Below are positions 39,832 to 41,460 of a DNA stretch of 64,000 nucleotides, one piece after another (position 1 is the stretch's first letter; each line of letters opens with the position of its first letter). The DNA is from Clostridiaceae bacterium. Its GTDB lineage: Bacteria; Bacillota; Clostridia; Peptostreptococcales; Tindalliaceae. Under the pieces are notes generated by a model, which was not told the origin of the DNA, searched no databases, and worked only from the letters and a program-made list of their open reading frames with translations. The stretch spans positions 308,953-372,952 of the forward strand of contig JAABSW010000001.1 of assembly GCA_011390155.1 (NCBI GenBank), read 5' to 3'. The position numbers were made by a program, and so were the translations under genes.

Positions 39832-41223
39832 ATGGATTATTCAAGGCTTTGGAAAGAACTGATGAAAGCAAAATCCATCTATGGCGTAAAATACCCCGCC
39901 ACATTTGATCCGGATGTGATTAGTTTTAAAGGTAAACATATTGGAAGAAATAAATACGAAACCTATATGCAAGGGAGTGATTTTAGCAAGGTTGACAGGT
40001 TGCGGTGGCGGCATATAGAAGGTGCTGAAAATATTGGAGGCATCGTTTATCCAACGTCATTTGATATTGAAAACGCTGATTTCTCACATCGTGACATTTC
40101 AAAAAGTAACTTTTACCATATGTGTGATGTGTTGAATTGGAATATGCTTAGTAATGCTTCGGAAATCTGGGGAATAAGGTATCCTGAAACTTTTGAAACG
40201 AAAAACATTGATCTTGCAGGAAAATACATTGCCGGAAGTGATTTTGGTTGTGTAGACAGCCTGAAATGGTCTCATTTTAAAGATGTGTGGGGTTTGAACG
40301 ATATTGTATATCCAGGTGGTTTTGACATAGAAAATGCTGATTTAGGTGATAAAAATATCAGTGGAAGTGATTTTCGAAAAGTAGGAACCCTTACTTGGAA
40401 TCAAATCTTCAAAGCAGAGTTTATTTTTGGAATAAAATACCCGCAAAGCTTTGATATCAAAAATGCTGATTTCAATGATGATCCATATGGGAAACCGCGT
40501 GACTTGACAGACAGTGACTTTAGTTTGTGCCATGGTTTGACATGGAATCAGATGAAATTTGCCGGTGATATTTCCGGAATATCCTATCCAGAAAGCTTTG
40601 ATATTGGTTTAGCGGATTTCAGAGGTAGAGATGTCAGCAGAAGTGATTTTTCAAGAGTAAGGAACCTGAAGTGGGAGCATGTTTCCATGGCTGAGGATGC
40701 AAGTGGATTAATTTATCCGGAAACCTTTGATGCTGAAACGTTAGAAGCCTCGGGTAAAAACTTTAGTGGAAATGATTTCAGTAGAATAAAAAACCTGAGA
40801 TGGAGACATATTAAAGACGCGCGGTATATTGCAGGTATTATATACCCATCAACCTTTGATGCCGAAGAAGCTGATTTCAAAGATTTGGACATAAGATTTT
40901 CAGATTTTAGTCGTGTTAAAAACCTTAAATGGAAACATATTTCAGTTGCTGGAAAAGACTTGAGAGGCATCAAGTACCCAGAAGGATTTGATTTTACGGG
41001 GGCTGACCTTACAGGTAGGGAAATAGCAGGCAGTGATTTTAGACATAGTAAAGGTCTTGAATGGCGGCAAATGGTAGATCAGACTGGTTGGAAAAAACTC
41101 TTTGGGGTAAAAAAATCACTGACAGGTATTGTATTTCCTGCACAGTTTGATTATTCCCGTGTATCATTTGAAGGTATTGATCTAAGCTATTGCGATCTTA
41201 CGGCAATTGATGAAACAGTGTAA
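39832..41223 (+). CDS. Repeat protein with alternating pentapeptide turns and W/GIxYP linkers
   Basis: A 463-residue protein made almost wholly of ten units of about 43 residues. Each unit has 20 residues in four pentapeptides (for example FDIEN ADFSH RDISK SNFYH), exactly one turn of the right-handed quadrilateral beta-helix of pentapeptide-repeat proteins. Each is followed by 23 residues of the pattern VxxLxWxxIxxAxxIxGIxYPxS. Unit five has a six-residue insertion and the last linker is ten residues longer. No signal peptide, membrane span or catalytic motif. ATG 39832 is eight bases after AAGAGG and downstream of the promoter. FmdB follows 30 bp later. I do not recognise this architecture; function unknown. 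Confidence 0.8.
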   Translation: MDYSRLWKELMKAKSIYGVKYPATFDPDVISFKGKHIGRNKYETYMQGSDFSKVDRLRWRHIEGAENIGGIVYPTSFDIENADFSHRDISKSNFYHMCDVLNWNMLSNASEIWGIRYPETFETKNIDLAGKYIAGSDFGCVDSLKWSHFKDVWGLNDIVYPGGFDIENADLGDKNISGSDFRKVGTLTWNQIFKAEFIFGIKYPQSFDIKNADFNDDPYGKPRDLTDSDFSLCHGLTWNQMKFAGDISGISYPESFDIGLADFRGRDVSRSDFSRVRNLKWEHVSMAEDASGLIYPETFDAETLEASGKNFSGNDFSRIKNLRWRHIKDARYIAGIIYPSTFDAEEADFKDLDIRFSDFSRVKNLKWKHISVAGKDLRGIKYPEGFDFTGADLTGREIAGSDFRHSKGLEWRQMVDQTGWKKLFGVKKSLTGIVFPAQFDYSRVSFEGIDLSYCDLTAIDETV

Positions 41224-41253: not shown

Positions 41254-41460
41254 ATGCCGGTGTATGAATATAAGTGTCTTGAATGTGGGAAACATTTTGA
41301 TGCACTTCGGAAAATGGATGACATGGATCTGAAGATTCTATGCCCTGACTGTGGAAGTGATGAAACAAAAAGGCAGCTTTCTGTTTTTGGGGTGGGCAGC
41401 AGTCAAAAGTCATCTGGTAACTCCCATAAAACTTCGCCACCGCCATCCTGTGGTGGCTGA
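41254..41460 (+). CDS. FmdB-type zinc ribbon protein
   Basis: A 68-residue putative regulatory protein. MPVYEYKCLECGKHFD and the later CPDCGSDET give the two CxxC knuckles of the FmdB/CxxC_CXXC_SSSS family, and a Ser/Pro-rich tail that ends PPPSCGG is also typical. ATG 41254 lies nine bases after AAAGGA; the ATG at 41245 directly abuts it. It lies 30 bp after the repeat protein gene and may share its transcript. Molecular role unknown; family members may bind zinc and nucleic acid. Confidence 0.85.
   Translation: MPVYEYKCLECGKHFDALRKMDDMDLKILCPDCGSDETKRQLSVFGVGSSQKSSGNSHKTSPPPSCGG

Follow-up and report, generated by a model that had tools for sequence, protein, structure and literature searches.

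A Ten-Fold 43-Residue Repeat Protein of Clostridia Is Predicted to Form an LRR-Like Arc of Double Coils

Leucine-rich repeats (LRRs) and pentapeptide repeats are treated as separate families. Fold classification groups both among the single-stranded right-handed beta-helices (PMC12688089), with pentapeptide-repeat proteins being defined by the presence of at least eight contiguous pentapeptides (PMC8145042). Within the LRRs, the FNIP/FGxxFN class (PF05725; Crov588, Crov539) is built on a 22-residue coil of the form hxxhxhxxxFNxxhxxxIPxx, its known members residing in giant viruses and slime moulds (PMC9525666), while the bacterial IRREKO LRRs nest 10 + 11 residues within one 21-residue coil (PMC2946307). 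The Knotted Solenoid fold comprises triangular dimers of 100–160 residues (PMC13123833). Here, we describe a solenoid protein encoded in a 64,000-nucleotide stretch (the window) of the genome of a Clostridiaceae bacterium (contig JAABSW010000001.1, positions 308,953 to 372,952), and compare it with these systems. The features discussed are listed in Table 1; the start codon of the gene is an ATG that coincides with the starts of its orthologues.

Table 1. Coordinates of the solenoid gene, its units and related features (window positions unless a locus is named).
Feature	Position	Strand	Residues or length	Basis or remark
Solenoid protein CDS	39832..41223	+	463 aa	stop included; ORF present
N-terminal cap helix	39838..39861	+	residues 3-10	AlphaFold2 model
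Unit 1	39871..40026	+	residues 14-65, 52 aa	unit lengths, unit HMM
Unit 2	40027..40158	+	residues 66-109, 44 aa	unit lengths, unit HMM
Unit 3	40159..40287	+	residues 110-152, 43 aa	unit lengths, unit HMM
Unit 4	40288..40416	+	residues 153-195, 43 aa	unit lengths, unit HMM
Unit 5	40417..40563	+	residues 196-244, 49 aa	unit lengths, unit HMM
Unit 5, conserved 6-residue insertion	40480-40497	+	residues 217-222	orthologue comparison
Unit 6	40564..40692	+	residues 245-287, 43 aa	unit lengths, unit HMM
Unit 7	40693..40821	+	residues 288-330, 43 aa	unit lengths, unit HMM
Unit 8	40822..40953	+	residues 331-374, 44 aa	unit lengths, unit HMM
Unit 9, with extra helical segment QTGWKKLFGVK	40954..41112	+	residues 375-427, 53 aa	unit HMM, AlphaFold2 model
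Unit 10 (partial) and C-terminal cap helix	41113..41220	+	residues 428-463	unit HMM, AlphaFold2 model
FmdB-like ORF	41254-41460	+	~68 aa	30 bp 3' of solenoid gene
DUF134 gene	L003:1136-1486; L008:9654-10004; L009:9654-10004			overlaps solenoid gene start
PP2C-giant protein pair	L010:8005-14689; L011:7882-14853; L012:1154-7953; L027-L030			seven loci
Short pentapeptide-repeat gene	L022:1501-1887	-		Oscillospirales-type genome

Self-matches of the protein at lag 43 number 84, as compared to a maximum of 52 over lags 1–119 in 2000 shuffles, and a unit HMM built from 24 diverse units gives ten matches in the whole host genome, all of them within this one ORF (E 1.9e-21 to 9.5e-7). The ten-fold 43-residue repeat is confirmed as real. 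Ten units of about 43 residues had been proposed in the original prediction, and the count stands; their length is not strictly 43, as several carry 1–10 residues extra, with exact 43-residue spacing found in homologues from Oscillospirales-type genomes. The consensus of 51 regular units reads x-x-I-x-G-I-x-Y-P-x-x-F-D-I-E-N-A-D-F-x-G-R/K-x-I-S-G-S-D-F-S-x-V-x-x-L-x-W-x-H-I-x-x-A, the best conserved positions being P9 and Y/F8 (51/51 each), F12 (49/51), F29 (48/51), D28 (46/51), W37 (45/51) and L35 (44/51). Letter counts over these units bear out the LxW, A and GIxYP pattern described earlier, and the parsing of FDIEN-ADxxx-xxISG-SDFxx into four pentapeptides is likewise a correct reading of the letters. 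Searches of the curated Pfam and NCBIfam families returned nothing beyond partial pentapeptide matches; no family in these collections defines the unit, in agreement with the claim that the layout belongs to no described family, and no description of it was found in the literature searched. It is possible that an existing, unlabelled cluster holds it. A first scan of genome contigs with a single sequence gave no match.

AlphaFold2 models of the full protein (P0001, from a seven-row alignment) and of a 230-residue piece comprising five units of an Oscillospirales-type protein (L010) were judged by DSSP and superposition statistics. The full model has a pLDDT of 91.2 and a pTM of 0.86 (five models spanning pLDDT 88.9 to 91.2) and the 230-residue model a pLDDT of 93.0 and a pTM of 0.88. 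The two homologues are about 36% identical to each other, and the secondary-structure pattern is identical in both models: in each unit beta bridges occur at positions 2, 7, 23 and 28, and helical turns of 3–4 residues near positions 14–16 and 38–41. Because the spacing from position 2 to 23 is 21 residues and that from 23 to position 2 of the next unit is 22, the unit is predicted to consist of two coils. VIA-align places 230/230 residues of the shorter model on the LRR domain of FBXL2 (6o60_C, 87–366, 280 residues) at 3.4 Å with a Z of 14.9, its eleven coils of 21.5 residues pairing one-to-one with eleven LRRs of ~26. Neither model has protruding arms, since the 230-residue model lies on the LRR horseshoe at this distance with all of its residues. 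The full model matches 6o60_C with a Z of 17.2 and ribonuclease inhibitor (1dfj_I) over 354 residues at 3.8 Å with a Z of 15.3, and further matches a Tupanvirus F-box protein (probability 1.00, TMq 0.55) and two viral proteins annotated as LRR (TMq 0.43–0.45). The LRR fold is a right-handed arc of 20–30 residues per coil with its beta strand on the concave side. Arc and coil count agree with many solved LRR chains by superposition, from which the handedness and the concave side of the predicted arc would follow. We thus confidently predict an LRR-like arc of double coils, being neither a quadrilateral tower nor a solenoid with arms.

The predicted arc shares with LRR proteins such as FBXL2, ribonuclease inhibitor and the internalins its curvature and coil-by-coil superposition, the short helical turns away from the beta rows, and the exposure of repeat-specific residues on one face. 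In contrast to these proteins, it lacks the LxxLxLxxNxL consensus (two matches in the window protein, both out of register) and any match to the Pfam LRR models, and two coil types alternate in each 43-residue unit. The Pfam LRR and FNIP models, PF05725 included, do not match the window protein at E up to 10. We propose that the solenoid comprises some 20–21 coils, each unit being a pair of non-identical ones held by buried ladders of I, Y/F, F, L and W. Coil A, 'xDIxGIxYPxxFDIxNADFxG', would carry an FNIP-type LRR core, LxxLx[FY][GP]xxF[ND], and coil B, 'KDISGSDFSxVxxLxWxHIxxA', would have a pentapeptide-like beta side and, in another part of the coil, a short helical turn. The core pattern is matched by 9/10 units against a shuffle mean of 0.0035; P was allowed for G, and D for N, only once the sequence had been seen. 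As read from the letters, the GIxYP segment fits this core: IxxIxYPxxFD of coil A compares with LxxLxFGxxFN of the FNIP/FGxxFN class (PMC9525666) in spacing, aromatic pair and 22-residue coil, whereas the pattern is found in every second coil only (A, not B) and has P for G and D for N. Superposition of the 230-residue model on the FNIP-type structure 7zal covers 222 residues at 5.2 Å (Z 10.3). Like IRREKO (PMC2946307) the protein is bacterial, has a 21-residue coil and shows nested higher-order periodicity, but it nests two whole coils (21 + 22) per unit and its consensus differs. The Knotted Solenoid fold (PMC13123833) was considered and rejected, as its triangular dimers do not form an arc of this size. 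Because membership of the LRR, FNIP and pentapeptide families each fails at least one defining feature, we place the protein among the right-handed single-stranded solenoids, as one that would work like an LRR scaffold.

Surface conservation gives independent, supporting evidence for two coils per unit. At non-core positions in the Tindallia lineage the autocorrelation of conservation is largest at lag 21 (r 0.60, permutation p 0.005), and after smoothing the conservation profiles of both lineages reach their long-lag maximum at 21 (r 0.50 and 0.51); the raw non-core positions of the Oscillospirales lineage give a lag-21 r of 0.21 that is not significant (p 0.17). The lag-21 signal therefore argues for a surface constraint that acts in parallel on both halves of the unit, as expected of two equivalent coils. 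It is on the models and on this periodicity that the two-coil claim rests, because residue similarity between half-units, measured by BLOSUM profile and by hydrophobic-pattern autocorrelation, does not peak significantly at lag 21/22.

In the stand-alone lineage, positions 2, 4, 5, 23, 25 and 26 are 90–100% identical among orthologues (mean identity 0.93), the other exposed positions (10, 11, 31, 33, 34, 36, 38, 41 and 42) being 23–37% identical. These six positions form the best conserved face (p 0.0003 after maximising over faces), and all of them except G5 differ from repeat to repeat. In the giant Oscillospirales-type proteins described below it is a neighbouring face, formed by positions 7, 10, 28, 30 and 31, that is most conserved (p 0.001). 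A purely structural constraint would not explain these faces, since the most conserved one differs between the two lineages. Being mostly variable between repeats yet nearly invariant among orthologues, the residues of the face read as a surface that binds one fixed partner, and the simplest reading is a horseshoe scaffold with one such partner per lineage. The repeat, its rarity, the conserved loci, the predicted fold and the conserved face are computational results; protein binding by the face, and any signalling role, we infer. No signal peptide, membrane segment, anchor or secretion signal can be made out in the sequence, and the protein is therefore probably cytosolic. Taken as a whole, a cytosolic curved LRR-like solenoid, most likely acting as a protein-binding scaffold or inhibitor-like horseshoe whose arc face (positions 2, 4, 5 and 23, 25, 26) would engage one fixed protein partner, is the reading that we consider reasonably probable. 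A structural or assembly protein whose conserved face self-associates into a homo-oligomer or filament instead of binding a different protein would also display a conserved face of unit-specific residues, and dimerisation is known from several pentapeptide and LRR proteins (PMC8145042, PMC9525666); we regard it as unlikely on the grounds that the Oscillospirales-type proteins conserve the other face, which argues against one shared assembly contact, and that no anchor or secretion signal is apparent. Rather doubtful, too, is the notion that the unit is a natural intermediate in which one pentapeptide beta-helix coil and one LRR coil alternate, such that the two superfamilies could share descent via double coils.

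The original prediction had the protein alternate 20-residue quadrilateral beta-helix turns of four pentapeptides with 23-residue linkers projecting from one face as helical arms, and had named structure prediction as a check. That the protein is a solenoid is supported, and its local pentapeptide character is genuine. Pentapeptide spacing is present at unit positions 12–31, and PF00805 scores the window protein at 24.1 bits (cut-off 20.2), its best stretch covering 19 residues (387–405); Oscillospirales-type proteins fail this model (11.7 bits or no match). As in HetL, Qnr, MfpA and Alr5209, A/SDFxx pentads occupy half of the unit, with a small residue at i-2 and F/I at i, and sequence matches to the pentapeptide proteins 3n90 and 6omx span unit positions 14–32 only. 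The AlphaFold2 models do not support the rest of the proposal: both give two coils (21 + 22) and zero arms, and the 23-residue part would be wound into the solenoid itself rather than inserted as a linker, because the beta bridges fall at 2, 7, 23 and 28. A right-handed quadrilateral beta-helix has 20 residues per coil, whereas the modelled coils have 21 or 22, with bridges at two places per coil; the solenoid, with four pentads in a row, further differs from pentapeptide proteins in being an arc and not a straight tower. Runs of pentads with a hydrophobic centre extend to five at most, or to three if i-2 has to be small, shuffles commonly reach five or more, and the eight contiguous pentapeptides of the family definition are not found in the window protein. 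Foldseek gives its best E-values to pentapeptide proteins with the full model and with the 230-residue model, yet the full model has a TM to known pentapeptide proteins of 0.07–0.13 at an rmsd of 12–19 Å, and the 230-residue model, itself of pentapeptide-protein size, a TM of at most about 0.3. This ranking reflects local geometry and sequence. Pentapeptide proteins are absent from the best 50 VIA-align matches, an absence that alone carries no weight. Together with the full-length superposition on LRR arcs, these findings make the armed beta-helix very unlikely, and the earlier reading as a whole is partly supported. Even less probable is a Qnr/MfpA-like DNA mimic, that is, an acidic gyrase-protecting pentapeptide-repeat rod binding DNA gyrase: six orthologues have a net charge of -11 to -26 and weak similarity to QnrB and Qnr sequences exists, but the predicted shape is curved and not straight, the NCBIfam QnrB model scores 13.5 bits against a cut-off of 460, and TM to Qnr proteins is at most about 0.3.

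Pentapeptide-type sequence combined with a predicted LRR-like bend suggests that the shape of a solenoid is not determined by its local sequence class, a mixture that should surprise repeat-protein specialists, and automatic naming as 'pentapeptide repeat protein' can mislead on fold. The regular 43-residue module may also be usable in repeat-protein design.

One copy of the solenoid protein is present in six of the seven searched genomes of the host's family, host included, the genome without a copy being only 75% complete. The five other orthologues are 59–62% identical to the window protein, and the carriers, among them Anoxynatronum buryatiense and two Tindallia MAGs, belong to a group of alkaliphilic clostridia. 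Orthologues in all five genomes keep every unit, odd-length ones included; because individual quirks in unit length are retained, the array is old and not expanding, with each unit fixed. The module is found in 2/391 genomes of the class, both from the host's own family, in the host only among 398 genomes of the phylum, and, as a second home, in 7/200 genomes, within one family of Oscillospiraceae/Clostridia MAGs. A mobile-element origin was rejected, as phages and viral contigs gave no match to the module and plasmids only a weak, ordinary pentapeptide match.

The locus of the stand-alone protein is conserved, with genes (named from reading their sequences) for a TypA/BipA-like GTPase and an M20-type peptidase upstream and NUDIX, cobalamin adenosyltransferase, phosphoribosyltransferase, PduL-like, Lgt, MraZ and RsmH genes downstream. 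The inspection of homologues' neighbours proposed in the original prediction thus yielded conserved loci, and a PP2C gene beside the giant proteins, but no single partner gene constant across all relatives of the window protein; the neighbours (a DUF134-type regulator, an FmdB-like ORF and, in the other lineage, PP2C) give hints of partners only. The small FmdB-like ORF, a CxxC...CxxC zinc ribbon, also follows the solenoid gene in L007, L009 and L008 (start truncated in the scan) and is absent there in L004 and L005. Four bases (ATGA) are common to a DUF134 gene and the start of the solenoid gene in one genus, which suggests translational coupling. Neither the window nor Anoxynatronum has the DUF134 gene at this locus, and a functional link through it was rejected since the two genes are adjacent and overlapping only in the four genomes of one genus. 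The host genome has a single DUF134 gene, which is ~247 kb distant; its neighbours are NifX-like and Mrp-like ORFs, and it looks like another paralogue.

In the Oscillospirales-type genomes, exactly spaced 43-residue units lie near the N-terminus of proteins of 1730–1922 aa. The gene for the giant protein is located directly 3' of a PP2C-type phosphatase gene in 7/7 loci, as judged by reading the sequence, with PP2C confirmed by Pfam in the one locus tested. The two constitute an uncharacterised conserved pair of gut-type bacteria, in which the module marks the N-terminal domain of the giant protein, probably one for recognition. In three giant proteins scanned the remainder of the chain has no Pfam or NCBIfam match, and a TerB-type identity was dropped for want of a Pfam match. 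One further match in such a genome (G1039) was rejected as a member of the module, reading as an ordinary short pentapeptide protein; its gene (L022) is situated between triosephosphate isomerase-like and phosphoglycerate kinase-like genes. The PP2C-type phosphatase of L012 also carries a Big_2 domain. The giant protein of L010 (P0004) appears, by eye, to contain two copies of a helical segment (residues ~545–600 and ~765–850) with an '(E/Q)LYP' core, flanking a low-complexity linker.
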